From the NCBI RefSeq assembly GCF_900172255.1, contig NZ_FWFU01000001.1:1054001-1118000 (forward strand): a stretch of 64,000 nt of DNA, given 5' to 3'. Source of the stretch: Roseovarius halotolerans. Its GTDB lineage: Bacteria; Pseudomonadota; Alphaproteobacteria; Rhodobacterales; Rhodobacteraceae. A model generated the notes under the pieces. The model saw only the letters and a program-made list of their open reading frames with translations, searched no databases and was not told where the DNA came from. Of the stretch, positions 2,253 through 19,500 are shown one piece after another. The first letter of the stretch is position 1. Each line of letters begins with the position of its first letter. Position numbers and translations under genes: made by a program.

Positions 2253-4726
2253 CACGTATTTTCCGTCAGGTTCTGCTGGCGCTGACGCTGGCCCTGTTCG
2301 CCGGAAGTGGCGGCGGCATCGTTGTGCCGCCCGCCCATGCGCAGGAGGCGGCCAGCACACCGGATTTCGATCAATGGGATCGGTTCGCCGCGTCGGTGGA
2401 AAGCGCCGTCGAAGCAGGTGATACCGAGAACCAGACGCTCGAGCAACTGCGCGAGGACCTGACGGAGTGGCGTGAGACCTTTCTTGGGGCGCAGAATGCC
2501 AACTCGGGCAGCATCGCCACGGTGCAGCGCCAGCTTGACGCGCTTGGGCCGGCGCCCGAAGATGGGGGTGAATCCCCCGAAATCGCGCTGGAGCGCGAGC
2601 AGCTGAATGCCCGCCTGACCGAGCTTCAGGCACCGGGCAGACGGGCCGAGCTGGCCTATAGCCGGGCCGACGGGTTGATCCGCAGCATCGATCAGACGAT
2701 CCGGGACCGTCAGACCGAGGCCTTGCTGCAGGTCGGACCGTCACCGGTGAACCCCGTGCATTGGCCGGGTGCGCTGAGTGCGCTTTTCTCGGTCGGGACA
2801 TCGCTGGTGAGCGAGGCGCGAAGTTCCTTTTCGGAAGCGATGCAGCGGGGCACCATCGGAGATAACCTGCCGGTGACGCTGCCGCTTTTCGTGCTTGGAC
2901 TTGTGCTGATGGCGCGCGGGCGGCGCTGGAGCCGGGGGCTGAGCCGCCGGATCCTGCGGGACCGTGAAAGCGCCGGGCGCTGGATCGCCGGGTTCCTGGT
3001 GTCGCTTGGCAGTTTCGCGCTGCCCTATCTCGGGCTTGTGGCCCTCAGCGTCGTGATCGTGATTTCGGGACTGGCGGGAGAACAAGGCCAGCAGCTCTTG
3101 CAGGAATTCGTGCGCGCCGCGCTGATTTTCCTGGTGGCAAGATGGCTTGCGACGCGGGTGTTTCCGGCTGAAGACACGCGCAGCCCGATCTTGGACCTCG
3201 GGGTGGACGAGCGGCTGCGGGGGCGCTGGTATGGCGCGGCGCTTGGCTTGGTGATCGCGGCCCTGAACCTGGGCAACGGGATGCGCGAGATATTCAAATG
3301 GTCCGAGGCGGCGGGCAATGTGATCCTGTTCCCGGTCATGGTGATCGCGTCGCTCTTGCTGTGGCGGTTGGGTCGCCTGCTGGCGACGCATGCACAGAAC
3401 GAAGATGATACGGCGGCTGGCGAAGAGGCACCCAATTCGCGACTGGCCGGGATCATGACGCGGGCAATCACGATCCTGGCGGTCGTGGTGCCGGTCCTCG
3501 CTGCGGCGGGCTATTTCACGCTGGCGAAGTTCCTGCTGTTCCCGTCGCTGCTGTCGCTGATGCTGATCGCGGGGCTTATGGTTCTTCAGCGCGTTGTGGT
3601 CGAGCTATACGCGCTGTTGACCGGGAATGTCGCTGGGGCGGCGGAATCCCTGATCCCGGTCATGGTGGGTTTCGTTCTGGTGCTGCTGTCCCTGCCGCTG
3701 TTCGCGCTGATCTGGGGCGCGCGGGTGGCCGATCTGACCGAACTCTGGACACGCTTCGTGGAGGGGGTGTCGATCGGGGGCACGCGGATTTCCCCGACGA
3801 TCTTTCTGACCCTTGCGGTGGTGTTCGCGCTTGGCTACCTGGTGACGCGCCTGACCCAGGGGGCGCTGAAGAACTCGATCCTGCCCAAGACCCGGATCGA
3901 TCCGGGCGGGCGCAATGCGATCGTGGCCGGGGTGGGATATGTGGGCATATTCCTGGCAGCCATCATCGCCATCACCAGCGCCGGGATCGATCTGAGCAGC
4001 CTTGCCATTGTGGCTGGTGCGTTGTCGGTCGGGATCGGTTTCGGTTTGCAGAACATCGTGTCGAATTTCGTCTCGGGGATCATCCTGTTGATCGAGCGGC
4101 CGATTTCGGAAGGCGACTGGATTGAGGTGGGCGGTCAGCATGGCTATGTGCGCGACATCTCGGTGCGTTCCACCCGGATCGAGACCTTCGATCGCACTGA
4201 CGTTATTGTGCCCAACGCGGATTTCGTCAGCGGCACCGTCACCAACTACACGCGTGGCAACACCGTGGGGCGCGCCATTGTGCCGGTTGGCGTCTCCTAT
4301 GGGACCGACACCCGCAAGGTTGAGGCCATTCTGCAGGAGATCGCCGAGGCGCATCCGATGGTCCTGGCCAATCCCAAGCCCTATGTGGTGTTCCAGGGGT
4401 TTGGCGACAGTTCGATGGATTTCGAGATCCGGGCGATCCTGCGGGACGTGAATTTCGTTCTGAACGTGCGTTCGGACATGAACCACGAGATCGCCCGCCG
4501 CTTCGCCGAGGAAGGCATCGAGATTCCGTTCCCGCAACAGGATCTGTGGCTGCGCAACCCCGAGACGCTGACGGGTGCGGGATCGGCAACGCAGGAGCCG
4601 CGCAAGGCATCGACCGCCGACACCACGCCGCATCTGAGCGCGCGCGACGTCGAGGCGACGGTACGCGACGATGATGGCGCCTCCGGCGAAGACGGAGCGG
4701 ATGGCGGTGGCGGGGACGGACGCTGA
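2249..4726 (+). CDS. DUF3772 / MscS-family mechanosensitive ion channel
   Basis: A large (825 aa) inner-membrane channel that should open on membrane tension and release solutes during hypo-osmotic shock. It has an N-terminal signal peptide (cleavage near AHAQ, residue ~33), a periplasmic helical region of about 170 residues (DUF3772 type), many membrane segments, and a MscS pore and beta domain at about 575-780. The glycine/alanine-rich pore helix starts near residue 585. The last ~60 residues are acidic and glycine-rich. The GTG start sits inside the cysK stop. The antisense strand of its 3' third is open and continuous with the ICE recombinase frame. Confidence 0.85.
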   Translation: MTRIFRQVLLALTLALFAGSGGGIVVPPAHAQEAASTPDFDQWDRFAASVESAVEAGDTENQTLEQLREDLTEWRETFLGAQNANSGSIATVQRQLDALGPAPEDGGESPEIALEREQLNARLTELQAPGRRAELAYSRADGLIRSIDQTIRDRQTEALLQVGPSPVNPVHWPGALSALFSVGTSLVSEARSSFSEAMQRGTIGDNLPVTLPLFVLGLVLMARGRRWSRGLSRRILRDRESAGRWIAGFLVSLGSFALPYLGLVALSVVIVISGLAGEQGQQLLQEFVRAALIFLVARWLATRVFPAEDTRSPILDLGVDERLRGRWYGAALGLVIAALNLGNGMREIFKWSEAAGNVILFPVMVIASLLLWRLGRLLATHAQNEDDTAAGEEAPNSRLAGIMTRAITILAVVVPVLAAAGYFTLAKFLLFPSLLSLMLIAGLMVLQRVVVELYALLTGNVAGAAESLIPVMVGFVLVLLSLPLFALIWGARVADLTELWTRFVEGVSIGGTRISPTIFLTLAVVFALGYLVTRLTQGALKNSILPKTRIDPGGRNAIVAGVGYVGIFLAAIIAITSAGIDLSSLAIVAGALSVGIGFGLQNIVSNFVSGIILLIERPISEGDWIEVGGQHGYVRDISVRSTRIETFDRTDVIVPNADFVSGTVTNYTRGNTVGRAIVPVGVSYGTDTRKVEAILQEIAEAHPMVLANPKPYVVFQGFGDSSMDFEIRAILRDVNFVLNVRSDMNHEIARRFAEEGIEIPFPQQDLWLRNPETLTGAGSATQEPRKASTADTTPHLSARDVEATVRDDDGASGEDGADGGGGDGR

Positions 4727-4807
4727 GCGCGCCCCGCGAGGCGATTGCACCGGGCCGACAGAAACCCCTTGAACTGCCCGTTTGTGGACGTTTAAAGAGA
4801 GCCGCAC

Positions 4808-4897
4808 GGAGAGGTGGCCGAGTGGTCGAAGGCGCACGCCTGGAACGCGTGTAGGCGGGTAACCGTCTCCAGGGTTCGAATCCCTGTCTCTCCGCCA
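4808..4897 (+). tRNA. tRNA-Ser(GGA), ICE integration target
   Basis: A 90-nt class II tRNA. The acceptor stem GGAGAGG pairs with TCTCTCC (one G-U), discriminator G, with an encoded CCA end at 4895-4897. The anticodon stem CACGC/GCGTG encloses the loop CTGGAAC, giving anticodon GGA (Ser, UCC/UCU). It has a long variable arm and a T-loop GGTTCGAATCC. The gene is intact: the inserted ICE starts exactly at its 3' end, so integration preserves the tRNA. Confidence 0.95.
4892..4897. other. Proposed attL core (CCGCCA at tRNA-Ser 3' end)
   Basis: These are the last six bases of the tRNA, immediately followed by the recombinase gene. The same six bases occur at 49076-49081. Large serine recombinases need only a very short common core, so a 6-bp identity is compatible with this enzyme class. 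The exact crossover dinucleotide cannot be read from one integrated copy. Confidence 0.5.
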
Positions 4898-6517
4898 CTT
4901 CAGTCCGCCTCTGGGCACGCCAATCGCCGCCGATTGCCGCACCTGGCCGCCCGCAAGCGTCCTCAGCAGTTCCGTTTTCGATCCCATGATGCGGATTGCG
5001 TCGTCGGCGACCTCGACACGCTGCGCCAGGGCGCGCAGGTGATCCCGCCGATAGCCGCCCTCACGGTCCCGGATACGGTCGCGAGCGATCTGCGAGAATT
5101 GCCGGATCATCGCCGGGCTGACGGCGCTGTGACCGGGGCTGTCGAGCAGCGTCTGAGCGCGGTCGGCGTCCGCCCGCGCCTGATCGCGGATGACCTTTAG
5201 GCCGGCGATGCGTTCGGTCAGCGCCGGGTCGTCCAGATCGGCAACCCCGGCCTCGATGGCGTCATAGAGACGCTTGAGGCGTAGTTCCGATTCGGAAGCC
5301 CGGCGCTGCAATTCGGCGATGTGCTGGCGGCGGCGCTCGGCCTGATCTTCTCGGCGACCGAGGACGCTGCCAAGCAGCTTCTCCAGCCGGTCGGGATCAA
5401 GCAGGCGTTCCTCGATATGACCGGCAACCATGGTGTCGAGCTTGTCCATGGGGATCGCGCGCCCCTTGCAGCCGGTTTCGCCCTGCCGTGCCCGGATCGA
5501 GCAGGCATAGTAGCGATAGCGGCCGCTCTTGCCGGTGCGGATGGTCATCGCGCCCCCGCAATTGCCGCAATAGCAGATGCCGGTCAGAAGCGTGGGACCG
5601 ATCACGACGCGCGCGGGCAGTTCGGTCTTGGGGTTGCGGGCCTGCAAGAGCTTCTGCACCGCCTCGAAGGTCTCGCGGTCGATGATCGGCGGTACCGGCA
5701 CGATGACGATTTCATCGGCTTCCTTGTCCGCCTTGTTCTTCCGGTTCTTGCCCCATTGATGCTCGCCCATATAGGTGCGCCGGGTCAGGATGCGGTGAAC
5801 CTGGCCGACGCCCCAACGGCCGCCGTCACGGGTGAAGATGCCTTTGCCGTTCAGATGCTTGACGATGGCCTTAACGCCCATCTGACCGGAATCGCCATCA
5901 CCTTCCAGCGCCAGGCGATAGATCAGGCGGATCGTGTCGGCGTGCAGCGGGTCGACTTCCAGCTTCTTCTTGACCTTCGCGCCGCGCTGCTCGGCTGCGA
6001 CGACGCGATAGCCGACCGGGGGCAGCGAGCCGTTCCAGAAGCCTTGCCGGGCGTTTTCCTTTAAGGCGCGCAGGACATGCTTGGCGTTCTCCTTGGACTG
6101 GTATTCGTCGAACAGCGCCATGATCTGCCGCATCATGACGTGCATGGGGTCGTCGCCCATCTCCTGCGTGATGGAGACGAGGCGAATACCATTCTTCGCC
6201 AGCTTCCTGACATAGAACTCAAGCTCGAAATGATCGCGGAAGAAGCGCGAGAAACTGTGAACCACGACAATATCGAAGGGCGCGGGCTTCGACGTTCCCG
6301 CCTCAATCATTCGTTGGAACTCGGGGCGGCGGTCGTTGGTGGCCGACGCGCCGGCCTCCACGAAGGTTTCGACAAGCTGATAGCCCCTCGCTTCGCACCA
6401 TGCTTCGCCCTGCCTGCGCTGGTCGGGGATCGACACGTCATGTTCGGCCTGCCGGCTGGTGGAGACGCGCAGGTAGAGGGCAGCCCGCAGGGCGACATTG
6501 GGATTGTGGACGTTCAT
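4898..6517 (-). CDS. Large serine recombinase (ICE integrase)
   Basis: Site-specific recombinase expected to integrate and excise the ICE at tRNA-Ser. It has an N-terminal resolvase domain (catalytic Ser19 in LRVSTSRQ, about residues 11-165), a recombinase domain (about 185-300), a zinc ribbon with CYCGNCG and a later GCKG (about 315-365), and an arginine-rich coiled coil (about 385-450). The ATG at 6517 overlaps the preceding regulator stop as ATGA, with AGGAAAGGA upstream. Coordinates here cover only the ICE-encoded part; there is no stop codon in this stretch and the frame continues to 3605. In the predicted circle it would end at a TAG at 49013-49015. Confidence 0.88.
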
Positions 6518-6900
6518 TTGCGGGTTCCTTTCCTGCGAGGCTCGACCAGAGGCAAGACCAGTTCCACACGGTCATGAACGAGCTTCGGGACCAGTCTCAG
6601 ACCCCGGCCTTTTTCCATGCGCACAAGCCCGTATCCGACCATGGCCTTGAGGGTTCTGGACAGGTTGGACTTGGCGCGGCCGGTCATCTGCGCCAGCTCT
6701 TCCAACGAGGCTGGCTGCTGTTCGTAGATGATGCGCAGCATCTCGCAATTGCTCGCTGACATGAATTTGGCGAAGGATGTCGTGGAGATGAACCAGACCG
6801 TCGGCTCGCCGGGCTTCGGTTTTTCCTCGCCACGCGCGATCCGAAGGGTGCGGGCCTTCATTTCCTCGGGATCGGCGATCCCGACTTTCAATGTGGACAT
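6514..6900 (-). CDS. Winged-helix transcriptional regulator (HVO_A0114/MarR-like) in the integrase operon
   Basis: A 128-aa protein with a winged helix-turn-helix at about residues 55-105 (ASLEELAQMTGRAKSNLSRT) and a basic C-terminus (RRKGTRK). It resembles small HTH proteins annotated as HVO_A0114-type or MarR-like. Its stop overlaps the recombinase start by 4 bp, so it is co-translated with the integrase. A role controlling integrase expression or assisting excision is inference. The same fold is used by some antitoxins, but no matching toxin is adjacent. Confidence 0.7.
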   Translation of the reverse strand: MSTLKVGIADPEEMKARTLRIARGEEKPKPGEPTVWFISTTSFAKFMSASNCEMLRIIYEQQPASLEELAQMTGRAKSNLSRTLKAMVGYGLVRMEKGRGLRLVPKLVHDRVELVLPLVEPRRKGTRK

Positions 6901-6919
6901 GGCAAGACTCGATTATCGT

Positions 6920-7234
6920 TCAGGGTTTTTCATTATCATAATACGATAACGATTTCAAGTCATCGGGCAGATCGACCGAGCCGAACAACTCGTCGAACAC
7001 ATCGGCGAACCAGCGCTCGAACACCTGAATCTCGGCCTCGGTGATCGGCACGTCCTCGGGCCAGTCGTCGATGACCGGCAGCCGCTCGACATCGAAGAGA
7101 TGGAGCGGGCGTCCACGCGGCGGACTGACGCGCGGCGTCGGGTCGTCGTCGTAGTCGTAGAGATCGTCGGGGAGCGTTTTGGGGACCGGCTGCCGTGGGC
7201 GGCCCCTGCTGCCGTGGCGGTGTTTCGTGGACAT
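6920..7234 (-). CDS. Hypothetical acidic protein, first gene of the integrase operon
   Basis: A 104-aa product with a basic, proline-rich start (residues 1-20), then a strongly acidic body (DDLYDYDDD near 25; ITEAEIQVFERWFADVFDELF in the C-terminal half). The ATG at 7234 is preceded by CGGAGG. It lies 19 bp upstream of the HTH gene and so is probably in one operon with the regulator and recombinase. I do not recognise a family. The acidic profile would suit a small partner of a DNA-binding protein, for example a directionality factor or anti-repressor; that is only a guess from position. Confidence 0.55.
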   Translation of the reverse strand: MSTKHRHGSRGRPRQPVPKTLPDDLYDYDDDPTPRVSPPRGRPLHLFDVERLPVIDDWPEDVPITEAEIQVFERWFADVFDELFGSVDLPDDLKSLSYYDNEKP

Positions 7235-7284
7235 GGAATCCTCCGTGGTTCGCGGGATTTTCCGGGGGCTGGAAGCCCGGAATA

Positions 7285-7353
7285 GGCGAAGCATGGAGGG
7301 GGATCGGCGGCCTGTAGCGTGCCGCATTTGCGTCGATGCGTTGACGGCACCCC
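7285..7353 (-). promoter_or_regulatory. Conserved 69-bp leader/promoter element, copy 1 (integrase operon)
   Basis: Lies 51 bp upstream of the first start codon of the integrase operon. It is repeated at 33236-33304, 55 bp upstream of the HTH-rep operon, in the same orientation relative to the genes. A 28-bp core (7305-7332) is identical; flanks match at most positions with no gaps. The minus-strand transcript can form a hairpin whose arms are at 7319-7325 and 7344-7350; the one changed base between copies becomes a G-U pair in the RNA. A shared promoter, operator or leader RNA is likely. Confidence 0.6.
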
Positions 7354-7386
7354 TGTTACTAGTGTCGGCGCAGAGCCCGTTGCGCC

Positions 7387-8295
7387 TTACTTGCTGGTTG
7401 TCGCGCTGGTCTCCGCCCGCAAACTCTCCAGGAAGAGAGTGAAAGCACGGGTCGGATGGCGCCGGCTCGAATAGAAGGCGTGATAGCCCGGAAACGGCGG
7501 ACACCAATCGGCAAGGACCTCGACGAGCAGCCCGTCGTTCAGAAAGGGCGCGGCGAGATCTTCGAGCATGTAGGCCAGACCCATCCCCGCGCTGGCAGCC
7601 CCTACGAGTGCGTCGCCGTCATTGACGATCAGGGACGGCGACACTTTTACCGTCTCCGCATGTCCGTCTTTCTCAAACGACCACGGCGACAGGGTGCCAC
7701 CCGCGTTTCTGAAACCGATGCAGCGGTGGGCCGACACGTCACGCGGCGTGTGCGGAGGATCGCAGCTGTCGAGATACCGGGGCGCCCCCACAACGACAGC
7801 GCGCAAGTGGGGCCCAACGGGCACGGCGACCATGTCCATTTCCAAGTCTTCGCGCAGCCGTATCCCGACATCGAACCGCTCGGCAACGATGTCGACATGC
7901 CGGTTCTCCACGCTCAGCTCGCCGTCGATCTCGGGATGGGCAGCGATCAGTCGCGAGAAGGCCGGCCAGACGAGCGTATCGGCGGCATGTTTGCCGCAGG
8001 TCACCCGCAGACGTCCGCCCGGTTCCTCACGCAACTGTTCCAGATCGTCGATTTCCGCATCAATCTCCGCGATGACCGGCGCGAGTGTGGCCAGAAGCCG
8101 CTCGCCCGCCGCGGTGGGGGCAATGCTGCGTGTCGAGCGTGACAGCAACCTGATCCCCAGATCGGCCTCAAGGCGCTTTACGGTCTGGCTGACGGCGGAC
8201 TGGGTCACGCCGAGGCTGCGTGCCGCCGCGGTGAAGCTGCGCTCTTCGGCAACGCGATTGAAGATGACGAGGTCCGAGAACTTACGCGGGTCCAT
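7387..8295 (-). CDS. LysR-family transcriptional regulator (cargo)
   Basis: A 302-aa regulator with an N-terminal winged HTH (residues ~5-60; AARSLGVTQSAVSQTVKRLE) and a LysR substrate-binding domain (~90-295). It is divergent from the broken SDR gene at 8394 with a 98-bp shared promoter region, the usual layout of a LysR protein and its target. It sits between the integrase operon and the trb operon, so it is probably cargo. The inducer cannot be deduced. Confidence 0.85.
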   Translation of the reverse strand: MDPRKFSDLVIFNRVAEERSFTAAARSLGVTQSAVSQTVKRLEADLGIRLLSRSTRSIAPTAAGERLLATLAPVIAEIDAEIDDLEQLREEPGGRLRVTCGKHAADTLVWPAFSRLIAAHPEIDGELSVENRHVDIVAERFDVGIRLREDLEMDMVAVPVGPHLRAVVVGAPRYLDSCDPPHTPRDVSAHRCIGFRNAGGTLSPWSFEKDGHAETVKVSPSLIVNDGDALVGAASAGMGLAYMLEDLAAPFLNDGLLVEVLADWCPPFPGYHAFYSSRRHPTRAFTLFLESLRAETSATTSK

Positions 8296-8393
8296 TCAGT
8301 AGCTATACTACTTGGTCCGACAAATTTCGAGGTACTAATCTCCCACTGCATAGATGCGCTAATATCGCGTCGGCACGACAAGAGGAGCTGACA
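8296..8393. promoter_or_regulatory. Divergent promoter region LysR / SDR with inverted repeat
   Basis: A 98-bp spacer between divergent starts. AGTAG-CTATA-CTACT (8298-8312) is a perfect 5-bp inverted repeat just upstream of the LysR start and could be a LysR-type binding site. AAGAGGAG (8380-8387) is the ribosome site for the SDR gene. Operator assignment is inference. Confidence 0.35.
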
Positions 8394-9215
8394 ATGACAG
8401 AAAAGGTATGGTTCATCACCGGCGCTGGCAGGGGACTTGGGCATCTGCTCTCTCGCGATGCGCTGCGCGCTGGCGACAAGGTCGTGGCAACCAGCCGAAG
8501 CGTCGACGGGCTTGCAGAAAGCCTCTCCGCTCCGGACGACAGCCTGCTCGTGTTACCGCTCGATGTGACCGATGCCCGGGCGGCTTCGGCAGCACATGAC
8601 GCAGCCATGGAGGTGTTTGGCCGGATCGACATCCTGGTCAACAACGCCGGCCGCGCCCAGCTTGGATGATGGTTCGAGACGATCCCGGAGGAGGACGTGC
8701 GCCGGCAGTTCGAGATCAACCTCTTCGGGGCGATGAACGTGGCGCGCGCGGTGCTGCCGACGATGCGCCGTCAGCGCTCGGGCCTCGTGGTCACGATCTC
8801 CTCGGTGAACGGCTTGGTCTCGAACCCCGGTGGATCGGTCTACTCGGCGTCCAAGTTCGCGCTCGAAGGCTGGATGGAGGGCCTCGCCGAAGAAATCGCG
8901 CCGCTTGGCGTCCGATCACTCATCGTGGAGCCGGGGATGATGCGCACAAACTTCCTTGATCCGTCCACTGCACGGCAGGGGGATATGGACATTGCCGACT
9001 ATGCCGAGGCGGTGGCCGGTTTCCGAACCTTCATCGCAGAAGCGAACGGCGCGCAGCAGAACGATCCGGCGGCGCTTTCCGCCCTGATCGTCTCTGAAGC
9101 GTCCTCTCCCGACCCAGCGCGACGGCTCCTGTTCGGCGCCGATGCGCACGAATGGGCCAGCGCCAAGTGCCGGCAACTCACAGCCGAGATCGACGCTTCG
9201 AGCGCCCGTGCCTGA
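8394..9215 (+). pseudogene. Short-chain dehydrogenase/reductase, interrupted by an in-frame stop
   Basis: Together the two halves read as one classical SDR: the TGxxxGxG cofactor motif at residues 10-17 (TGAGRGLG), NNAG at ~83-86, the catalytic YSASK near 8842, and a C-terminal region ending at 9215. The frame is broken by a TGA at 8667-8669 in GGA-TGA-TGG. Removing one ATG/TGA trinucleotide (GGATGATGG to GGATGG) restores the frame, so a 3-nt tandem duplication explains the stop. The downstream half has an ATG at 8733 but lacks the NAD(P) site. Likely inactive target of the divergent LysR gene. Confidence 0.8.
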
Positions 9216-9242
9216 GTGCGGGCAATGTCGGCTTCGTGCCGC

Positions 9243-9488
9243 TCAGTTGCCATTTATCCCACTGGACCACTTCCCCCCCCGCCGCGCCTTTGCGAAGCCG
9301 CGGTCCGTGGCGATGAACCGCTCCAGCATGGGCACGATCAGCCTGACGGGATCGGCAACGGCTTGCCCCGTCTCGCGCCCCAGCACCTCGGCATAGGCGA
9401 CCAGATCGCGGTGGAGCGGCGCGGGCAGCTCCAGGGTCACCTTTACGGGCTTGTCGTCGGGCAGCGGGCCGAGTTTCAGCTTGGTCAT
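9243..9488 (-). CDS. DUF2274 protein, last gene of the trb operon
   Basis: An 81-aa protein starting TKLKLGPL, as is typical of DUF2274 proteins found after trbI in alphaproteobacterial ICEs. The middle (LHRDLVAYAEVLGRETG) resembles a ribbon-helix-helix or short helical DNA-binding unit. It starts 2 nt after the trbI stop. A regulatory role is inferred from fold and position only. A run of eight G residues near its 3' end encodes part of RRGGKWSS. Confidence 0.7.
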   Translation of the reverse strand: MTKLKLGPLPDDKPVKVTLELPAPLHRDLVAYAEVLGRETGQAVADPVRLIVPMLERFIATDRGFAKARRGGKWSSGINGN

Positions 9489-9490
9489 GG

Positions 9491-10630
9491 TCAACCTCCT
9501 GCCGGCTCGAATATCAAATCGCGGGTGACGATTATCCTGACCGGGAAGCCGGGCCGGATGGTCAGCGTGGGCGCGACCTGCAACTGGCGCTGGACGATCT
9601 GCTGGCCTGCCTGATTGACGGTATCTTGCGCCCCGTCGCGGATGGCGCGGATCAGCCGGTCCTCGTCGCTGGTCGCGAGCTCCGTGCCGACTGCGAGCAG
9701 CGTGGATAGTCCTGCGGCCTTCATCAGATCCCACCAATGATAATCGACGCCATCCTCAAGGCCGGCATAGCCCGATGCGTCCGCGCCCGGCAGGCGCTCA
9801 AGGACGATGGAGCGGCCGCCCGGCAGGATCAGGCGATTCCACACCAAGAGCACCCTGCGCTGGCCGAAGGTCACGCCGTCATCATATTGGCCGATGATGC
9901 GGGTGCCCTGCGGAATCAGGAGCAGCGAGCCGGTCGGGCTGTCATAGACGTTCTCCGTCACCTGCGCTGTGATCTGGCCCGGAAGGTCGGAACGGATGCC
10001 GGTGATGAGCGCGGCCGGGATCACGGCCCCGGCCTGCAGGATATAGGGCGAGGCCGGCGGCGTGACGCGATCCGGCGCGACGGTCTGGCGGTCCACCGGG
10101 CCGCCCAGGAAGGCGGCATGGCGGTTCTGACCGGCCGCTCCCTCCGGTTGCCCGCCGAGACCGGCCAGGCCGGGCATGGCCGTCCCGGCTGGTGTTCCTG
10201 TGCGCGGTCCGGTCTGGAAGAACACGCTGCTCAGGCGCGCGGCTTCTTCCTCGGCGCGGCGGCGTTCTTCCTCGGGATCGACCGCGGGCGCTGTGATCGC
10301 AGGCGTTGCGACCGGCTGGCCCCGCCTCTCGGCGTCGAGGATCGGACGGCCAAGGTCGCCGGGCAGCGCGGGGCCGAGGACCGGGCCGGTGTAGTCGGAG
10401 GGCAAGCCCGTGAGTCCGTCCGCCGTGGGCCGGTTTTCTGTCGAATAGAGTTCTTCGCCGCCCGGTCCGGCCTCGCGGGTCTGGAGCGCGTAGATCAGCG
10501 CGCCGCCGATGCCGAGAAGCGCGACCGCGCCAATGCCTGCCAGCATCTTGCGGGACAGGCGGGTGACGCGCGGCGGTTCTGCGCGCAGCCGCATGGGCGC
10601 TGTGGTGTCGGTGATCGGGTTGTCTGTCAT
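9491..10630 (-). CDS. trbI: TrbI, VirB10-like mating-pair channel protein
   Basis: A component of the conjugative type IV secretion channel that spans from inner to outer membrane. It has a short cytoplasmic N-terminus, one membrane helix at about residues 28-51, a proline-rich periplasmic linker, and a C-terminal VirB10 domain (about 180-375). The ATG at 10630 overlaps the trbG stop as ATGA. The frame is open further upstream, but that part is the trbG shadow. 379 aa is usual for the family. Confidence 0.92.
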   Translation of the reverse strand: MTDNPITDTTAPMRLRAEPPRVTRLSRKMLAGIGAVALLGIGGALIYALQTREAGPGGEELYSTENRPTADGLTGLPSDYTGPVLGPALPGDLGRPILDAERRGQPVATPAITAPAVDPEEERRRAEEEAARLSSVFFQTGPRTGTPAGTAMPGLAGLGGQPEGAAGQNRHAAFLGGPVDRQTVAPDRVTPPASPYILQAGAVIPAALITGIRSDLPGQITAQVTENVYDSPTGSLLLIPQGTRIIGQYDDGVTFGQRRVLLVWNRLILPGGRSIVLERLPGADASGYAGLEDGVDYHWWDLMKAAGLSTLLAVGTELATSDEDRLIRAIRDGAQDTVNQAGQQIVQRQLQVAPTLTIRPGFPVRIIVTRDLIFEPAGG

Positions 10631-11649
10631 GACGGCGAGTCTCCGGTGGCTGCGGGCTGAGCGGCGGCCTGTCGTTGCTCGATACGGACGATCCTGACGA
10701 CCTGCTGGCGGTTGCCGCTGCCAAGGCGCAGTTCGGCCGCGCCAAACAGACGGTCCACGATCAGGACGTTCCGGTAGATGCGGGAATTGACGATCTGCGG
10801 CTCGCCGTCCGACCCGAGCACGAAGATCGGCGGCATTTCGCCCTGCACGATCCCGCGCGGGAAGACGACATAGACGCGCCGGCCATCGTCGAAGACGGAA
10901 ACCGGCCGCCATGGCGGGCTGTCGCCCTGCACCTGCAATCCATAGCGATAGTTCCGCGCCGCCTCGGCAGGGATGACCGGCGCGGACGGGACGGCCCGGC
11001 GCTGGCCTGCCGGCGGCGCGGGATAGGCCCAGGCGACGGCGGGCATGTAGAGCGCTTCCCGCGCGCGCAGCTCCATCATGTAGGTTCGCCGGTCGGTGGT
11101 CACGACAAGGTTGGTCGAGATGTCGTCGCGGGTCGGTTTCACGAGGATATGGACGCGCCGGTTGGCGCCGCTGCCGCTCTCGGTATCGCCGATGATCCAG
11201 CGGGCGGTGTCGCCGGCCGCAATCGGTCCTGCGCCGGTCAGGTTTTCACCCGGCTCCAGCGCGATATTGGTGATTTGACCGGGGGCGGCATAGACCTGAT
11301 AGAGCGCGCCTTCCGACCACGGGTATATCTGGATGGCGTTGTAGTAGCCTTCGCGGCGCGGCTCGACGCGGGCGGCGGCGTTGGCGTTCTCGACGCGGCC
11401 GGTCGGTGTGCCCGCCCTCTCGCCGCCGCGCGCGACGGTCCAGGCGGGCGGAACATGCAGCGGCCGGGGCGTGTCCTCTGCCGAAGCGGCAGGCGGCGTC
11501 GGCAGCGGCGGCACGGCGTCGTCATAGGAGAATTGCGGCGTCCGGTTGGTGGCGCAGCCGGCCAGCACGGTCGCGGAAAGCAGCAACGCCGCCAGTGCGG
11601 GTTTGCGGAAAACCGGAAAGCCGGCTTTGCAGAAAGACGTGCGGGTCAT
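10627..11649 (-). CDS. trbG: TrbG, VirB9-like outer-membrane channel lipoprotein
   Basis: Periplasmic/outer-membrane component of the conjugation channel. The N-terminus is a lipoprotein signal with lipobox LAGC (Cys ~33). The VirB9/CagX domain fills the rest. 340 aa. The ATG at 11649 overlaps the trbF stop by 4 bp; the stop overlaps trbI. It belongs to the tightly packed trb operon and should assemble with TrbF and TrbI. Confidence 0.9.
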   Translation of the reverse strand: MTRTSFCKAGFPVFRKPALAALLLSATVLAGCATNRTPQFSYDDAVPPLPTPPAASAEDTPRPLHVPPAWTVARGGERAGTPTGRVENANAAARVEPRREGYYNAIQIYPWSEGALYQVYAAPGQITNIALEPGENLTGAGPIAAGDTARWIIGDTESGSGANRRVHILVKPTRDDISTNLVVTTDRRTYMMELRAREALYMPAVAWAYPAPPAGQRRAVPSAPVIPAEAARNYRYGLQVQGDSPPWRPVSVFDDGRRVYVVFPRGIVQGEMPPIFVLGSDGEPQIVNSRIYRNVLIVDRLFGAAELRLGSGNRQQVVRIVRIEQRQAAAQPAATGDSPS

Positions 11650-12335
11650 TGGCTCATCTCCCGCGACCATGAAATCGCATTGACATAGATGCCGAGCGGA
11701 TTGGCGCGCAGCCTCTCGGCGGTGCGCGGCGGCTGGATCACGATGGTCAGGATCGCGGTCCATCGCTCGGTGCCGGAAAGCTGGCCGTTTTCGTAGTGGC
11801 GCTCGGTCCAGGCGACCCGGAACGATCCGGGCGATGCCCGGATGACGCTGGACACATCGACGGCGATCTGTTGGCGGCCGACACGGGTGAACGGATCGTT
11901 GGCGCGGGCATAGTCGTTCAGAGCCGCAGCGCCCCGGTCGGTGGTGAACTCGTAGGCGCGAAGCCAGTTCTGGCGGACGATGATCGCATCGGCCGGGATC
12001 GCGCGGACCTGCTCGATGAAGCGGCCGAGATGGAAAGCGATCTGCGGATCGGTCGGGCGATAGTCGGCGTTCGCCGGTGCGACGGTCTGGGCTTCGCCGA
12101 GCGCATCGACCTGCACCACCCAGGGCACCACGGTCCCGCGCGCCGACTGCCACACCAGCGCCGAGGCGAAGCCCGCCGACAGGATCAGGGAACCGAACGC
12201 CATGTAGCGCCAGTTTCGCGCCTGCACGCGGGCCGAGCCGATGCGCTCATCCCAGACCTGCGCGGCCTTCTGATACGGGGTCTCGGGTTCCGGCGTCTTG
12301 CCGTAATGGGCTGCGGGTCGTTTGAAGATGCTCAT
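11646..12335 (-). CDS. trbF: TrbF, VirB8-like inner-membrane assembly protein
   Basis: A bitopic inner-membrane protein that nucleates the conjugation channel. It has a cytoplasmic N-terminus with the family start (KRPAAHYGKTPEPETPYQKA), a membrane helix at about residues 44-62, and a periplasmic VirB8 domain. 229 aa, as expected. It overlaps both trbL (upstream) and trbG (downstream) by 4 bp. Confidence 0.92.
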   Translation of the reverse strand: MSIFKRPAAHYGKTPEPETPYQKAAQVWDERIGSARVQARNWRYMAFGSLILSAGFASALVWQSARGTVVPWVVQVDALGEAQTVAPANADYRPTDPQIAFHLGRFIEQVRAIPADAIIVRQNWLRAYEFTTDRGAAALNDYARANDPFTRVGRQQIAVDVSSVIRASPGSFRVAWTERHYENGQLSGTERWTAILTIVIQPPRTAERLRANPLGIYVNAISWSREMSQ

Positions 12336-13708
12336 GAGCAGTCACTTTCGGAAAGGTTGACGGAAGAACCGGGGCCATGGCTGTCGCCGGAGCGGACGGC
12401 GTGTGCGGCCATGGTCGTGCCGTGGTTCATGGCCTGCGAGCGGCGCATCCGCTGCGCCCAGGCAGGCGGTGCGCCTGTGGCCGAGGCGGACGCGGCCGGG
12501 GCGGATGCTTCCGCCGCGCCTCCGGCCGTGCCCATGGTGGACGCGCCGCCACTCGCACCGAAGCCAGCCTTCGCGCCTTCGGAGAAACTGGACTTGACGC
12601 TTTCGGACGCGCGGGAGGCAGCGCGTTTCAAGGGTGAGACGGCTGCCGATCCTGCCGCGCGAGCGACGCCGCCAAGGCCAGACGCGACACCGGCCGCGCC
12701 GGACTGGCCGAGCGAGCCGAGGCTGTAGGCTGCGGAAGCGGCTCCTGCGGCCGTCGCGCCGCCGCGAACGGCCGCGGCCCCGCCGGACAAAGCGGCAGCG
12801 CCGCCTTTTGCGCCGAGCATCGCCGCGCCACCCGCCGCCGCACCGCCCGCCAGCACCATGCCGCCGGCGGCGAGGCCGGTGCCCACGGCCGCGCCCGCGC
12901 CGAGCTGGGGGCCGCCCGAGACAAGGCCGGTGGCGATGCCGGGTCCGAAGATGCCGAGGCCGAGCAGCGACAGGGCCGCGAGCACAATCGCCATGGCATC
13001 GTCGATCGTGGGGGTGACGCCGCCGAAGCCGGCGGTGAACTGCGAAAACAAGGTTGAGCCGATGCCGATGATGACGGCCAACACCAGAACCTTGATGCCG
13101 GAAGAGATTACGTTGCCAAGCACACGCTCGGCCATGAAGGCGGTCTTGCCGAACAGGCCAAAGGGGATCAGCACGAAGCCGGCCAGCGTGGTCAGCTTGA
13201 ACTCGATCAGCGTGACGAAGAGCTGCACGGCGAGGATGAAGAAGGCGAGGATCACCAGCGCCCAGGCGAACAGCAGGCAGGCGATCTGGATGAAGTTCTC
13301 GAAAAACGACCAGTAGCCCATCAGGTCGGAAATGGAATCGAGCAATGGTCGGCCGGCATCGAGGCCGGTCTGTGCCACCCGGCCTGGCCGCATGAGGTCG
13401 GCAGCGGAAAAGCCCGTGCCCGACGCCATGAGACCGAGACCGGCGAATGAGTCGAAGACGATGCGGGCGAGGTTGTTCCAGTTGCCGATGACGTAGGCGA
13501 AGACACCGACGAACAGGGTCTTCTTGACCAGCCTTGCGATAATGTCGTCATCCGCGCCCCAGGCCCAGAAGAGCGCCGCCAGCGTCACGTCGATGACGAT
13601 CAGGGTGGTGGCGATAAACGCCACTTCCCCACCGAGCAGGCCGAAGCCGGAATCTATGTAGCTGGTGAAGACCCCAAGAAACGAGTCGATGACGCCGGTT
13701 CCGCCCAT
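12332..13708 (-). CDS. trbL: TrbL, VirB6-like polytopic membrane protein
   Basis: Inner-membrane channel component. It has at least five predicted membrane helices in the first ~280 residues, followed by a long glycine/alanine-rich stretch (~270-400) and a polar tail, the normal TrbL layout. 458 aa. The C-terminus varies between family members and here ends in a serine-rich segment. Starts 3 nt after the small trbK-like gene. Confidence 0.9.
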   Translation of the reverse strand: MGGTGVIDSFLGVFTSYIDSGFGLLGGEVAFIATTLIVIDVTLAALFWAWGADDDIIARLVKKTLFVGVFAYVIGNWNNLARIVFDSFAGLGLMASGTGFSAADLMRPGRVAQTGLDAGRPLLDSISDLMGYWSFFENFIQIACLLFAWALVILAFFILAVQLFVTLIEFKLTTLAGFVLIPFGLFGKTAFMAERVLGNVISSGIKVLVLAVIIGIGSTLFSQFTAGFGGVTPTIDDAMAIVLAALSLLGLGIFGPGIATGLVSGGPQLGAGAAVGTGLAAGGMVLAGGAAAGGAAMLGAKGGAAALSGGAAAVRGGATAAGAASAAYSLGSLGQSGAAGVASGLGGVARAAGSAAVSPLKRAASRASESVKSSFSEGAKAGFGASGGASTMGTAGGAAEASAPAASASATGAPPAWAQRMRRSQAMNHGTTMAAHAVRSGDSHGPGSSVNLSESDCS

Positions 13709-13711
13709 GGA

Positions 13712-13999
13712 TCACTGTTCCTCGTTCTGTCGCGGAGCGGTCTGGGCGGGCGTCCGGCCAAGAAAGCGGTCGCGGCTCTCGGCCCATGCGGAAAGGCAGA
13801 CCGGATCGCTCGTCGCCGCTTCCCCAAGCTGCTGGCACCGGCGAAGCGTCGCGCGGAGCGGATCGGCCGGCGGTTGCAGCGCCGGTGCGGTGCTGGCCGG
13901 CGCGGGATCGTCCTTGCGGGTCATCTCGATCACCGTGGCCGCGATGGCCATGGCGACGAATACGACGGCCCCGAGCCGGGCCAGCATCTTGCCGTCCAT
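13712..13999 (-). CDS. TrbK-like putative entry-exclusion protein
   Basis: A 95-aa protein with one N-terminal membrane helix (about residues 7-25) and a periplasmic domain with two cysteines (RRCQQLGE and DPVCLSAW), the pattern of the alternative TrbK proteins between trbJ and trbL in alphaproteobacterial trb operons. In RP4 the equivalent lipoprotein blocks redundant transfer between donors; function here is by analogy. Confidence 0.75.
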   Translation of the reverse strand: MDGKMLARLGAVVFVAMAIAATVIEMTRKDDPAPASTAPALQPPADPLRATLRRCQQLGEAATSDPVCLSAWAESRDRFLGRTPAQTAPRQNEEQ

Positions 14000-14017
14000 G
14001 GGCGGCCCCTCCCGTGG

Positions 14018-14779
14018 TCAGTTGTTGCCGTTGAACATCTGCGCGTTGCCCGGCTGGTAGCCGCTGCCGGGGGTCAGGAAGCGCTCGCGCTGGACACGGC
14101 CCTGTTCGGCGGCCGTCGCACGCTCGGCCTCGATCAGCGCTTCCGACCGGCCGTTGGCGGCGAGCATGGCGATCAGGTCGGAAAGCTGCTGCGACTGGAG
14201 GGCGAGGATCTGATTGCCGGCCTGCGTGGCCTGCAATGCGCCGGTCGCACCCTGGCTCCGGCCGACGAGCGCGGCCATCTCGGCGCGGTTGCTGTCGATA
14301 TTGCCGACGACACCGGCTTGCACCTTCATGGCGTCCTGCAAGCCGCCGACCGTGTTTTGCCAACGGTCGCGCGCATCGGCGACAAGCTGGGCGTCGGTCG
14401 CCGACAGCGACACATTGCCGTATTGGCTCTGGAACGCCTGGTCGATGTTCTGCACGTCGAACGCGATGTTCTGCGCGTCGCTGAGAAGCTGCTGCGTGCG
14501 GCTGACGTTCTGTTGAATCTGCTGGAGCGAGGAATATGGCAAGCTCGCCAGATTGCGGGCCTGATTGATGAGCATCTGGGCCTCGTTCTGGAGCGAGGTG
14601 ATCTGGTTGTTAATCTGCTCCAGCGTGCGCGCGGCCGTGAGCACGTTCTGCGCGTAGTTGGTCGGATCATAGACGATCCATTGCGCATGGGCCGGGCTTG
14701 CCAGCATGGGCGAAAGCGCGACCGGAATGGCGAGCGCCAGCGCAAGGGCCGAGGCCCCGACAAACTTGGAATAGGTCAT
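14018..14779 (-). CDS. trbJ: TrbJ, VirB5-like mating-pair protein
   Basis: A secreted or periplasmic minor pilus component. Signal peptide at residues 1-33 (cleavage at AHAQ), then glutamine- and asparagine-rich coiled coils (TLEQINNQITSLQNEAQM). 253 aa. The start at 14779 is chosen for the signal peptide; the longer frame upstream is a trbE shadow. It overlaps trbE by 4 bp (ATGA). Confidence 0.9.
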   Translation of the reverse strand: MTYSKFVGASALALALAIPVALSPMLASPAHAQWIVYDPTNYAQNVLTAARTLEQINNQITSLQNEAQMLINQARNLASLPYSSLQQIQQNVSRTQQLLSDAQNIAFDVQNIDQAFQSQYGNVSLSATDAQLVADARDRWQNTVGGLQDAMKVQAGVVGNIDSNRAEMAALVGRSQGATGALQATQAGNQILALQSQQLSDLIAMLAANGRSEALIEAERATAAEQGRVQRERFLTPGSGYQPGNAQMFNGNN

Positions 14780-17262
14780 GGAAGAATCTCCTGTGGGGTA
14801 TCGAGTCGGGCCGGCGCGGCGGATTCCGGCCGGTCGGCAAGATTGGTGAGGTTGGGGATCAGCTCGACCGCCCACTCGACGCCGCGCTCGCGCAGCCATG
14901 CGGCGAGGAAACCATCGCGGCCGTGCTCCGCAACGATCTGCGCAATGAGGGTCTGGTCGGATTTGGCGGATGCGGCGCAGAGGGCGAGGCCGACTTCGGA
15001 CAGGCCCAGCTCGAACAGGCGGTTGCCCCTGCGGCTTTGGCAGTAATAATCCCGCTTGGGCGTGGCCCTTGCGAGGATTTCGATCTGCCTGTCATTGAGG
15101 CCGAAGCGGCGATAGATGGCCGCGATCTGCGGCTCGATGGCGCGCTCGTTCGGCAGCAGGAGCCGCGTCGGGCAGCTCTCGATGATAGCGGGCGCGATGT
15201 TGCTGCCGTCGATGTCGGACAGGCTTTGCGTGGCGAAGATGACGCTGGCGTTCTTCTTGCGCAGCGTCTTCAGCCATTCGCGGAGCTGGCCGGCGAATCC
15301 CTCGTCGTCGAGCGCAAGCCAGCCTTCATCGATGATGAGCAGCGTGGGGCGGCCGTCGAGCCGGTCGCCGATGCGATGGAACAGGTAGGACAGAACGGCC
15401 GGGGCCGCGCCGGTGCCGACCAGCCCTTCGATCTCGAACGCCTGCACGTCCGCCGATCCCAAATGCTCTGTCTCGGCGTCGAGCAACCGGCCATAGGCAC
15501 CGCCGACGCAGAACGGCCGGAGCGCCTGTTTCAGATCGTTGGATTGCAACAGCACCGCAAGGCCGGTGATCGTGCGTTCTTCGACCGGCGCGGAGGCGAG
15601 CGAAGTCAGCGCCGTCCAAAGATACTCTTTGACCTCGGGCGTGATGGCGATGCCTTCGCGCATGAGGATGGTGGCAATCCAGTCCGCCGCCCATGCGCGT
15701 TCATAGGTGTCGTGGATGCGGGCCAGCGGCTGGAGCGAGACGGACGCCTCGGCCCCTTCTGTCAGCCCGCCGCCAAGGTCATGCCAGTCGCCGCCCATGG
15801 CGAGCGACGCGGCGCGGATGCTGCCGCCGAAGTCGAAGGCGAAGACTTGGCTGGCCTCGTAGCGGCGGAACTGGAGCGCCATGAGGGCGAGCAGCACGCT
15901 CTTGCCCGCGCCCGTGGGGCCGACGACAAGGGTGTGCCCTACGTCGCCGACATGCAAAGACAACCGGAACGGGGTTGAGCCTTCGGTCTTTCCAAAGAGC
16001 AAAGGGGGCGCACCGAAATGCTCGTCCCGTTCCGGCCCCGCCCACACCGCCGAAAGCGGGATCATGTGGGCGAGATTCAAAGTGCTGATGGGCGATTGCC
16101 TGACATTCGCGTAGGCGTGTCCGGGCAGGCTGCCGAGCCATGCGTCAACCGCGTTGACGCTCTCGGGCATGGCGGTGAAGTCGCGGCCCTGAACGATCTT
16201 CTCGACCAGGCGCAGCTTCTCGTCGGCAAGGCGCGGGTCGGCATCCCATACGGTGACGGTCGCTGTGACGTAGGCCATGCCCGCCACGTCCGCCCCAAGC
16301 TCCTGCAACGCCATGTCGGCGTCGAGCGCCTTGTTCGCGGCGTCAGTGTCCACAAGGGCGGACGCCTCGTTGGTCATCACCTCTTTCAGAATCGCGGCGA
16401 CGCTCTTGCGCTTGGCGAACCATTGGCGGCGGATGCGGGTCAGGAGCTTTGTGGCGTCCACTTTGTCCAGCAGGATCGCGCGCGTGCTCCACCTGTAGGG
16501 GAACGGCAGCCGGTTCATCTCGTCGAGCAGGCCAGGCGTCGTCGCGGTCGGGAAACCTACGATGGTCAGGACGCGCAGATGCGCGTCGCCAAGGCGCGGC
16601 TCCAGCCCGCCCGTCAAGGGCTGATCGGCCAGCAGCGCGTCGAGGTGCATGGGCACCTCGGGCACGCGCACACGGTGGCGATTGGTCGATATGGTCGAAT
16701 GGAGGTAGGTCAGCGTCTCCCCGTCATCGAGCCAGCGGCACTCCGGCATGAATCCGTCGAGCAGCGCCAGCACGCGATCGGTGCGATCGATGAAGGCGCG
16801 CAGGACCTCCCACGGGTTCACGCCGGATTGCTCGCGACCCTCGTAGAGCCAGCTTTCCGCGCGGGCGGCTTCCTCGGCCGGGGGCAGCCAGAGGAAGGTC
16901 AGGAAATAGCCGGACACGAAATGCGTGCCGGCTTCTTCGAAACCCGCTTTGCGCTCTGCATCGACCAGCGCCGAGGCGGCGTCGGGAAAGGCGCTGTCGG
17001 GATAGGTCGCGGCCTCGCTGCGCTGCGCCTCAACGAAGATGCTCCAGCCGGAGCCGAGACGGCGCACGGCGTTGTTGATGCGACCGGCGACGGCGACTAG
17101 CTCGGCGGCGACGGCGGAATCCAGATCGGGACCGCGAAACTTCGCGGTGCGCTGGAACGATCCGTCTTTGTTGAGCACGACACCCTGACCGACCAGCGCC
17201 GCCCAGGGCAGATAGTCGGCGAGGCGCGCGGCGGTGCGGCGGTATTCGGCAAGGTTCATCAT
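14776..17262 (-). CDS. trbE: TrbE, VirB4-like conjugation ATPase
   Basis: The hexameric ATPase that powers pilus biogenesis and transfer. Walker A GPTGAGKS at about residues 448-455, Walker B LLIIDEGW at about 645, and the VirB4 N-terminal domain (about 20-230). 828 aa from the MM start at 17262. The longer frame to 17433 overlaps trbD and is not used. The neighbours trbD (13 bp away) and trbJ (overlap) place it in the standard order. Confidence 0.93.
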   Translation of the reverse strand: MMNLAEYRRTAARLADYLPWAALVGQGVVLNKDGSFQRTAKFRGPDLDSAVAAELVAVAGRINNAVRRLGSGWSIFVEAQRSEAATYPDSAFPDAASALVDAERKAGFEEAGTHFVSGYFLTFLWLPPAEEAARAESWLYEGREQSGVNPWEVLRAFIDRTDRVLALLDGFMPECRWLDDGETLTYLHSTISTNRHRVRVPEVPMHLDALLADQPLTGGLEPRLGDAHLRVLTIVGFPTATTPGLLDEMNRLPFPYRWSTRAILLDKVDATKLLTRIRRQWFAKRKSVAAILKEVMTNEASALVDTDAANKALDADMALQELGADVAGMAYVTATVTVWDADPRLADEKLRLVEKIVQGRDFTAMPESVNAVDAWLGSLPGHAYANVRQSPISTLNLAHMIPLSAVWAGPERDEHFGAPPLLFGKTEGSTPFRLSLHVGDVGHTLVVGPTGAGKSVLLALMALQFRRYEASQVFAFDFGGSIRAASLAMGGDWHDLGGGLTEGAEASVSLQPLARIHDTYERAWAADWIATILMREGIAITPEVKEYLWTALTSLASAPVEERTITGLAVLLQSNDLKQALRPFCVGGAYGRLLDAETEHLGSADVQAFEIEGLVGTGAAPAVLSYLFHRIGDRLDGRPTLLIIDEGWLALDDEGFAGQLREWLKTLRKKNASVIFATQSLSDIDGSNIAPAIIESCPTRLLLPNERAIEPQIAAIYRRFGLNDRQIEILARATPKRDYYCQSRRGNRLFELGLSEVGLALCAASAKSDQTLIAQIVAEHGRDGFLAAWLRERGVEWAVELIPNLTNLADRPESAAPARLDTPQEILP

Positions 17263-17275
17263 GGATGGGCTCCCC

Positions 17276-17557
17276 TCAGACCGCCAGAAAAGCCGGGATG
17301 CGCAGATGCCGCCGCCCGACTTCGACGAATTGGGGATCGCGCTTCGCCGCCCATACCGCCGCGAAATGCCCGATGGCCCATATGGCGATGCCGACCAGCC
17401 AGAGGCGCAGGCCGAGACCCACGGCCCCGGCAAGCGTCCCGTTCATGATGGCGATGCTTCTCGGAGCGCCGCCGAGCAGGATATGCTCGGTCAACGCCCG
17501 GTGGACCGGGATCGAGAATCCCGGCACCGCGTCCAGTTGTTCGAGACCGCCCGCCAT
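17276..17557 (-). CDS. trbD: TrbD, VirB3-like membrane protein
   Basis: A 93-aa inner-membrane protein with two adjacent hydrophobic segments in the middle (about residues 32-65), preceded by PGFSIPVHRALTE, a VirB3/TrbD signature. It works with TrbE at the base of the channel. The start overlaps the trbC stop by one base (TGATG). Confidence 0.88.
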   Translation of the reverse strand: MAGGLEQLDAVPGFSIPVHRALTEHILLGGAPRSIAIMNGTLAGAVGLGLRLWLVGIAIWAIGHFAAVWAAKRDPQFVEVGRRHLRIPAFLAV

Positions 17558-17889
17558 CAGACGAGCGCCCCGCCGCCGAACGAGAAGAACGACAGGAAGA
17601 AGCTCGATGCGGCGAACGCGATGGACAGGCCGAACACGATCTGGATCAGGCGACGGAAACCGCCGCTGGTGTCGCCGAAGGCCAGCGTCAGGCCGGTCAC
17701 GATGATGATGATGACGGCGATGATCTTGGCGACCGGCCCCTCGATGGATTCGAGGATGGATTGGAGCGGCGCTTCCCACGGCATCGACGATCCCGAGGCA
17801 TGGGCGGCCGGAGCCATGAAGAGGCCGACATAGGTGAAGGTCGCGGCCGTGGCGACGTGGCGGCGGATGCGCATGGTATGACGGATCAT
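17557..17889 (-). CDS. trbC: TrbC, VirB2-like pilin
   Basis: The major subunit of the conjugative pilus. It has an N-terminal signal sequence (cleavage near AHAS, residue ~32) and two hydrophobic helices (about 53-70 and 83-103). 110 aa, as in the family, and overlapped by trbB at 17886-17889. TrbC pilins are often cyclised after TraF-type cleavage; a TraF homologue is encoded at 29922-30467. Confidence 0.9.
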   Translation of the reverse strand: MIRHTMRIRRHVATAATFTYVGLFMAPAAHASGSSMPWEAPLQSILESIEGPVAKIIAVIIIIVTGLTLAFGDTSGGFRRLIQIVFGLSIAFAASSFFLSFFSFGGGALV

Positions 17890-18881: not shown

Positions 18882-18998
18882 GTCGGCCCCGCTTTCGACG
18901 GGGCGCACGACAGTCGGTCCCCGCATCGGGGTCGATTAAAAGAACCTGATTTTTGGCCGACTCAACAACTATTTACGCGCGTGCGGCCACCGGCGGTG

Positions 18999-19018
18999 AT
19001 CGGCGGCAAATAGGACGG
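18999..19018 (-). promoter_or_regulatory. 20-bp element shared by the trb and traG operons, copy 1
   Basis: The sequence ATCGGCGGCAAATAGGACGG is repeated exactly at 21578-21597. The copies lie 118 bp upstream of trbB and 98 bp upstream of traG, in the same orientation relative to transcription. This looks like a shared operator or promoter element that co-regulates channel and coupling protein. The LysR protein at 21604 is the nearest candidate regulator (inference). Copy 1 lies between trbB and the CopG gene, just 10 bp from the CopG stop. Confidence 0.55.
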
Positions 19019-19027
19019 TTTGAAAAT

Positions 19028-19489: not shown

Positions 19490-19500
19490 GGGAGGGTTCC

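Follow-up and report, generated by a model that had tools for sequence, protein, structure and literature searches.

The C-terminus of a protein encoded by a mobile element may depend on whether the element is circular or integrated. The attachment site of the circle (attP) of mycobacteriophage BPs lies inside the repressor gene, and the C-terminus of the product differs between circle and prophage (PMC4557955); ORF13 of phiRSS0, which also holds attP, likewise has a state-dependent C-terminus (PMC3816273). The archaeal suicidal (SSV-type) integrases have an attachment site inside the integrase gene (PMC8371274), and haloarchaeal pleolipoviruses carry a coding sequence that crosses attP and is complete only in the circle (PMC7911831). 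Here we analyzed a stretch of 64,000 nucleotides from Roseovarius halotolerans (contig NZ_FWFU01000001.1, positions 1,054,001 to 1,118,000; "the window", to whose numbering all coordinates refer), in which an integrative and conjugative element (ICE) inserted at a tRNA-Ser gene carries a large serine recombinase (LSR) gene that is open across the left border of the element.

LSRs recombine attP with the target site (attB) without a helper and need a directionality factor for the reverse reaction; control of direction is usually ascribed to this separate factor. We know of no LSR whose end changes on integration. Our reading, to which we assign a probability of about 0.6, is that the ICE belongs to a family of integrative elements whose LSR gene holds attP in its 3' end, and that the circle encodes a native, probably selected tail that is lost on integration. 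On the sequence, the recombinase frame has two C-termini, the circle fixing one and the host site the other; the borders in two hosts, the family-wide pattern, and the shared stop-terminated tail are likewise seen in sequence. The protein therefore very likely changes with every move of the element.

In the window, a minus-strand open reading frame (ORF, 6517..3605) of 970 amino acids from its ATG reads out of the left end of the ICE. Its Pfam domains, Resolvase (PF00239, residues 12–159), Recombinase (PF07508, 192–293), and zinc ribbon (PF13408, 310–368), follow one another within the first 368 residues, and we therefore assign the product to the LSRs, among which SPbeta SprA/YokA, Bxb1, PhiC31, and the Listeria LI integrase have the same three domains; the sequence match to YokA is 3.7e-15. 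In the N-terminal catalytic motif YLRVS, R15 and S17 (as numbered in the first row) are invariant in 44 aligned proteins, and S17 is presumably the catalytic nucleophile. According to the ORF, Pfam, and junction reading, the recombinase extends over 542 codons, the crossover region included (4892..6517, minus strand), with no stop before the crossover. The last two of these codons, W541 and R542 (hereafter WR), correspond to window positions 4897–4892, that is, to the left crossover region CCGCCA (attL, 4892..4897, defined by comparison with a second host) and to the final six bases of the called tRNA-Ser(GGA) gene (4808..4897, plus strand), which is the target (attB) and keeps its 3' end intact after integration. 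Past WR, 428 further codons of host DNA are open, and the stop ends at 3605 (foreign extension with stop, 3605..4891, minus strand; ORF, tRNA call, and Pfam); this stretch is the antisense of the tRNA-Ser and then of an MscS-like gene (2249–4726, plus strand). A preliminary description, made from the letters of the window, had the frame leave the ICE at the 3' end of the tRNA-Ser and remain open for about 430 codons to 3605, which agrees with this count.

When the two ends are joined at CCGCCA (4892–4897 / 49076–49081), the frame reads ...GGLKWR-GTRDSDENYVYSIALHDPLK-stop and gives a protein of 562 amino acids. The circle-state tail (49013..49075, minus strand, from the junction reading) comprises 20 codons after WR, GTRDSDENYVYSIALHDPLK, followed by TAG at 49015–49013, and is in frame only with the ends joined; the 22 codons proposed earlier for the right end, with the same TAG, are obtained when WR is counted. 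In the circle, the gajB-like gene on the opposite strand ends at 49003, 9 nt from the recombinase stop. After integration, 542 of the 562 codons, all three domains included, stay together.

It should be noted that the 6-bp repeat proves nothing about the borders, since the window contains 123 copies of CCGCCA (52 on the plus and 71 on the minus strand). The comparison of the sequence after the tRNA-Ser in three genomes of the same genus (L037, L043, and L044) with the right flank of the window, made in search of an empty site by synteny, gave no match, and the right border therefore rests on a second host. In a record titled as a Roseovarius metagenome-assembled genome (MAG; G058, NZ_JALUXE010000014), which shares its genus with the window, an ICE 99.86–99.99% identical in three pieces covering window 4806–49084 occupies tRNA-Ser(GCT) rather than tRNA-Ser(GGA) and diverges from the window at TGGCGG/CCGCCA on both sides; there the frame runs 121 codons beyond residue 540 to a stop. 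With the same borders in two hosts, the right end is, on sequence grounds, real (right crossover region CCGCCA, attR, 49076..49081), and the element measures about 44.2 kb (4892..49081, by this comparison and annotation). The protein sequence of the recombinase is 100% identical in records of Hyphomonas pacifica and Palleronia rufa. Defined ends, a type IV secretion system (T4SS), a coupling protein, a relaxase, and its own recombinase characterize the element as an ICE, presumably capable of transfer; it carries TrbE and other T4SS-type genes, TraG/VirD4, a DUF3363/RlxS-like relaxase, an RPA replication initiator, a ParB helix-turn-helix (ParB-HTH) protein, and Gabija.

Each of the described systems differs from this locus in at least one respect. 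In BPs and phiRSS0 the affected gene encodes a repressor or regulator, with a degradation tag used in BPs, whereas here attP lies in the gene of the recombinase itself. With the SSV-type integrases the ICE has in common an attachment site that, in the circle, lies inside the coding sequence of the recombinase, but those are tyrosine enzymes split on integration, whereas here the domains are those of a serine recombinase, no catalytic part is split off, and only a short tail is exchanged. In the pleolipoviruses, the coding sequence across attP is a gene distinct from the integrase and lies downstream of it. Lambda sib retroregulation, in which integration parts int from sequence across attP and alters int output, acts on RNA and not on the protein end. 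A similar target site is used by Int (ORF14) of the Ralstonia filamentous phage phiRSM1, a serine recombinase acting at a tRNA-Ser 3' end in reverse orientation with the core TGGCGGAGAGGGT, whose TGGCGG is common to the family of the window (PMC3816273); as described, this Int is small and resolvase-like, with attP between ORF14 and ORF15 and not in a coding end. A survey of actinobacterial ICEs mentions phiRSM1 (tRNA-Ser) and mycobacterial elements (tRNA-Leu) as rare cases (PMC3218068), and the integrase of the Sphingobium plasmid pPDL2 at a seryl-tRNA site, with 328 amino acids and similar to a phage integrase, was taken to be of a different type by its description. The Tn4451 enzyme works in both directions without a directionality factor (review PMC5704250). 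In the accessible text of the LSR survey PMC10083194 the word tRNA is absent, and the corresponding portions of PMC8627217, PMC11104534, PMC12884075, PMC5704250, and PMC10111431 contain nothing on a changing recombinase end; a literature search that left most subscription papers outside its reach returned no report of an LSR end swapped by integration. The general kind is known, with phage repressors and archaeal suicidal integrases as examples, while we did not find such a swap reported for an LSR in the literature within that reach.

The left ends of integrated relatives were surveyed in 86 rows (the best 80 of 322 from a genome scan and six from the genus, one of which is that of the window), or 83 distinct loci after removal of the duplicates L050, L051, and L052. 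In 61 of the 83, the frame passes WR without a stop and directly enters a tRNA-Ser. The other 22 comprise L109, which is broken, two loci of attP type, three contig ends together with L128, and 15 other or degraded sites; L109 is a tRNA-Ser junction with an early frame break, and in L128 the contig ends at a junction with a broken frame. The search for homologues with a stop inside the element, which would have refuted the preliminary description, did not do so: 61 of 62 tRNA-Ser junctions are open through WR, L109 with its early break being the exception. The anticodons at the junctions are TGA in 21, GGA in 16, CGA in 15, and GCT in 12 of 64 rows, and the stretch from WR to the stop extends over 8–631 codons with a median of 46 in the 62 attL rows with a stop, the three duplicates still being included in both sets. 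The dependence of the C-terminus on the integration state, as the preliminary description put it, holds in the window and across the family, whereas its long foreign tail does not hold as a rule, given the spread of these lengths. By their record titles, the hosts are mostly Alphaproteobacteria, with Modicisalibacter, Burkholderia, Bacillus, and Verrucomicrobia as the few exceptions.

Since the 428-codon extension is the antisense of a coding gene and other sites give other lengths, we take its length to be probably a local chance. A chance open frame in GC-rich DNA, of no meaning at all, can hardly account for the locus as a whole, because the pattern is family-wide and includes a shared stop-terminated tail; we rejected this explanation for the tail on the family-wide pattern and retained it for the length of the extension.

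Two relatives of the 53–57% identity class end at other tRNA genes, L186 (Sinorhizobium pSymB) at a tRNA-Arg 3' end with the same geometry and L187 (a 4.3-kb contig labelled phage) at a tRNA-Asn 3' end, and the geometry is for this reason wider than tRNA-Ser. Plasmid-borne relatives with 68–69% identity were seen on the Brevundimonas plasmid pBH3a (L183) and on Enterobacter and Klebsiella plasmids (H3–H8); the pBH3a gene lies near merD/merE and ends WRTTMASKPTAAR, and no tRNA was found there.

The search for right ends covered the genomes of 74 of the 80 loci from the scan; L062 and L064 (genomes covered through other loci), the Brucella loci L074 and L076, L124, and L128 were not entered. An earlier pattern with wrong spacing gave 3 matches across 50 genomes, and all of them lacked the correct spacing. 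In the first pattern search, 34 of 50 genomes had a right end at the 48-nt spacing, or 35 if any spacing is admitted (45 matches, three with other spacing dropped), and a fixed-spacing pattern with two mismatches found them in 28 of 43 genomes (16 without a right-spaced match earlier, one repeat, G126, already positive, and 26 new). The reversed control pattern matched in 11 of 50 genomes with all spacings allowed in the first search and in 1 of 43 in the second. Both searches together give right ends in 61 of 76 different genomes, 17 of the 43 having already been in the first search. With most sets of identical arms counted only once, 61 rows were entered, which contain 60 distinct 48-mers; 55 distinct arms have enough sequence. 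For 48-mers that were the same, only the locus found first was extended, so that a few differing extensions (L157 and L168, both with a stop at codon 23) are outside the 55.

In 21 of 22 same-contig pairs, the arm and the recombinase mark opposite ends of a single element, 2.6–70 kb apart (equal-length contigs, mostly from first-search genomes, with only L123 from the second; one arm was used where a contig, as in L090 and L123, has several); the right arm of Palleronia rufa was not placed as the partner of its recombinase. We also observed a correlation between tail and recombinase distances (r = 0.70, 0 of 9999 permutations, n = 20, using 20 of the 21 consistent pairs, several of them nearly identical).

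The tail consensus is WRxxxDxDExYxYAIAL (DxDExYxY[A/S]IAL), 15–20 residues. None of the 55 arms has a stop before codon 18; the stop is at codon 18 in 27 arms, at codons 19–23 in 27, and at codon 36 in one, and it may be TAA (17), TGA (25), or TAG (13). In 54 of 55 arms a stop lies no more than six codons from codon 17, compared with a mean fraction of 0.19 (0.05–0.33) in control windows and with 12/55 and 19/55 in the other two frames of the arms. The base conservation of the arms reaches background after nt 54, the commonest stop position, and in the codon-18 arms its loss coincides with the stop. Under a codon model, omega is 0.464 in frame (2dlnL 14.3, 52 rows; score equalled by 6 of 200 column permutations); the four other frames examined, with 46, 10, 50, and 46 stop-free rows, give 0.64–1.09 and 2dlnL <0.8. 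The distance to a convergent ORF at the tail stop (≤100 nt in 29 of 53 arms) lacked a proper control and was not used.

Two further loci, L115 (an Azospirillaceae MAG) and L118 (a Paracoccus MAG), contain an assembled gene that continues directly into a tail of the right-arm type (attP type). The first ends ATTDDDEHYVYAVAL, read as ...GLKWRATTDDDEHYVYAVAL-stop, and the second AEADETENYTYAIAL, read as ...GLKWWAEADETENYTYAIAL-stop. None of four contigs tested has the exact terminal overlap that marks a closed circle, and these two loci may thus be circles or tandem arrays. In AlphaFold2 models of the L115 and L118 proteins (in the order modelled, and read from longer pieces of the same contigs), the tail is a strand at residues 543–549 and 540–546, respectively, with a predicted local distance difference test (pLDDT) of 64 and 67 in the last block, and follows a disordered linker in both; the tail thus probably forms a beta-strand. 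Compared with known structures, the second model matches SPbeta 9dxh (Z 16.5, root-mean-square deviation (rmsd) 28.5 over 456) and Bxb1 9iu2 (Z 14.2, rmsd 16.4 over 360), with 9tep and 4kis as further matches; the tail strand (540–546) is outside the compared part, since the aligned region of the 50 listed matches ends by residue 517.

Taken together, the shared peptide, the nearly fixed stop with varied stop type, the omega below 1, and the predicted strand make the circle tail look native, as had been proposed, and probably under selection. The state-dependent tail itself is well supported by sequence, its selection moderately.

A number of results weigh against our reading, and some of them favor a purely DNA-level explanation, in which the right arm is kept as an attP half-site and the peptide is a functionless by-product. 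The arm starts at the crossover, where the half-site must lie, and the first part of the arm must double as this half-site. A simpler test of codon phase did not reach significance (synonymous fraction 0.207 versus 0.159 ± 0.050; 341 of 2000 column permutations), one reverse frame, run regardless of stops, gave a higher synonymous fraction of 0.299, and residues in the middle of the arm vary. In the codon 19–23 arms base conservation is gone before the stop, so that it ends short of the stop in half of the arms. Conservation of the tail is partly by choice, because YxYxIA sat in the search pattern (the codon tests exclude those columns), and the arm counts are not independent, because the arms share ancestry. 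No right end was found in 15 of the 43 genomes of the second search, three same-genus relatives among them. An attP-type junction, a rare pattern in assemblies, was absent from all 390 genomes searched in the window's order, which would be expected of assemblies dominated by the integrated state. Confidence of the models is low (mean pLDDT 68 and 74; predicted template modelling score, pTM, 0.33 and 0.36). Finally, the reading is drawn from sequence, and the role of the tail in direction is one that we infer. Even so, DNA constraint by itself appears unlikely. The usual LSR half-site is about 25 bp, and conservation to about nt 54 exceeds it; the stop is confined to a range of six codons, whereas its type and the preceding sequence vary; omega is below 1 in frame only; and the strand is predicted in two proteins.

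In the mechanism that we favor, that of a native tail encoded across attP, the LSR would use TGGCGG, at the tRNA-Ser 3' end, as its recombination site. Once the element is excised as a circle, the gene would cross attP and finish with the native tail of 15–20 residues; integration would detach this tail, and the frame would enter the tRNA antisense and end at whichever stop the host DNA offers. Both forms of the recombinase would presumably be translated. The tail may be selected since the enzyme made from the circle must integrate in a new host, and the tail-less attL form would be tolerated, maybe even favored, for excision. The tail most likely serves integration, because selection acts on the circle (or a tandem array), where the task of the enzyme is integration, and it might help attP-attB synapsis or restrain the reverse reaction. 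In this way the tail swap could be a built-in mark of the integration state and could bias direction. A complete directionality switch, in which the circle-only tail strand favors integration or blocks excision and recombination, by removing the tail, leaves an enzyme primed for excision, is a tentative extension that we regard as doubtful.

The polarity could also be the opposite, with the circle tail acting as a degradation signal as in mycobacteriophage BPs, so that the circle enzyme is short-lived and integration stabilizes it. In agreement with this, 27 of the 55 arms end at codon 17, mostly with ...AIAL; the other 28 have residues past codon 17 (1–5, in one case 18), and the extreme C-terminus is thus not kept. 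The host tmRNA tag, ANDNRAPVAVAA, is also unlike the tail, and we consider a degradation signal quite improbable.

In the preliminary description, the foreign chromosomal tail would inactivate or destabilize the enzyme and so lock integration. The attL forms at tRNA-Ser do lose the native tail and gain foreign residues, but the foreign stretches are often short (minimum 8 codons, as given above with the median). Moreover, excision requires recombinase made in the integrated state, for which reason some activity probably remains in the attL form, except where another copy supplies it in trans; a lock of this kind is quite unlikely. The tail-less form can probably excise, since the integrated form lacks the tail and yet a near-identical ICE sits in different hosts and sites.

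If our reading is true, a protein end that reports the integration state would form a second, built-in layer of directionality. It would also account for odd recombinase ends of the type RDSNPR, these residues being the tRNA gene read in antisense. Because genome databases hold mostly the integrated form, members of the family whose cloning follows the annotation would come without their native tail.

Among the other right arms, contig positions 16749–19341 of Sphingomonas sp. 37zxx (L095/L179) delimit a candidate element of 2,593 bp from the right arm to the recombinase end, perhaps a minimal mobile unit. The genome of Agaricicola taiwanensis (L151, L171–L173) has four right arms, and JAFS01000001 (L221) has three within 7.4 kb, which suggests multiple or stacked elements.

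Upstream of the recombinase in the window, a small winged helix-turn-helix gene (HVO_A0114/MarR-like by ORF and Pfam; 6514..6900, minus strand) overlaps the recombinase start (ATGA), and the two are likely co-translated. The RPA replication initiator and the ParB-HTH protein are encoded inside the ICE at 31880–32908 and 42737–45190, respectively (both minus strand); on account of these genes the ICE may be replicated or partitioned in circular form, and the tail would then be made over a longer phase. At its right end, the ICE carries GajA- and GajB-like genes (45327–49003, plus strand; PADLOC E 2.1e-266 and 1.2e-237) as Gabija defence cargo. A second AAA ATPase, whose TOPRIM part is OLD-like, is encoded at 34094–36100 (minus strand), its top PADLOC matches being Old and AriA. 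The ICE also contains a 278-bp repeat at 38535–38812 and 44821–45098, the two copies being 90.6% identical to each other.

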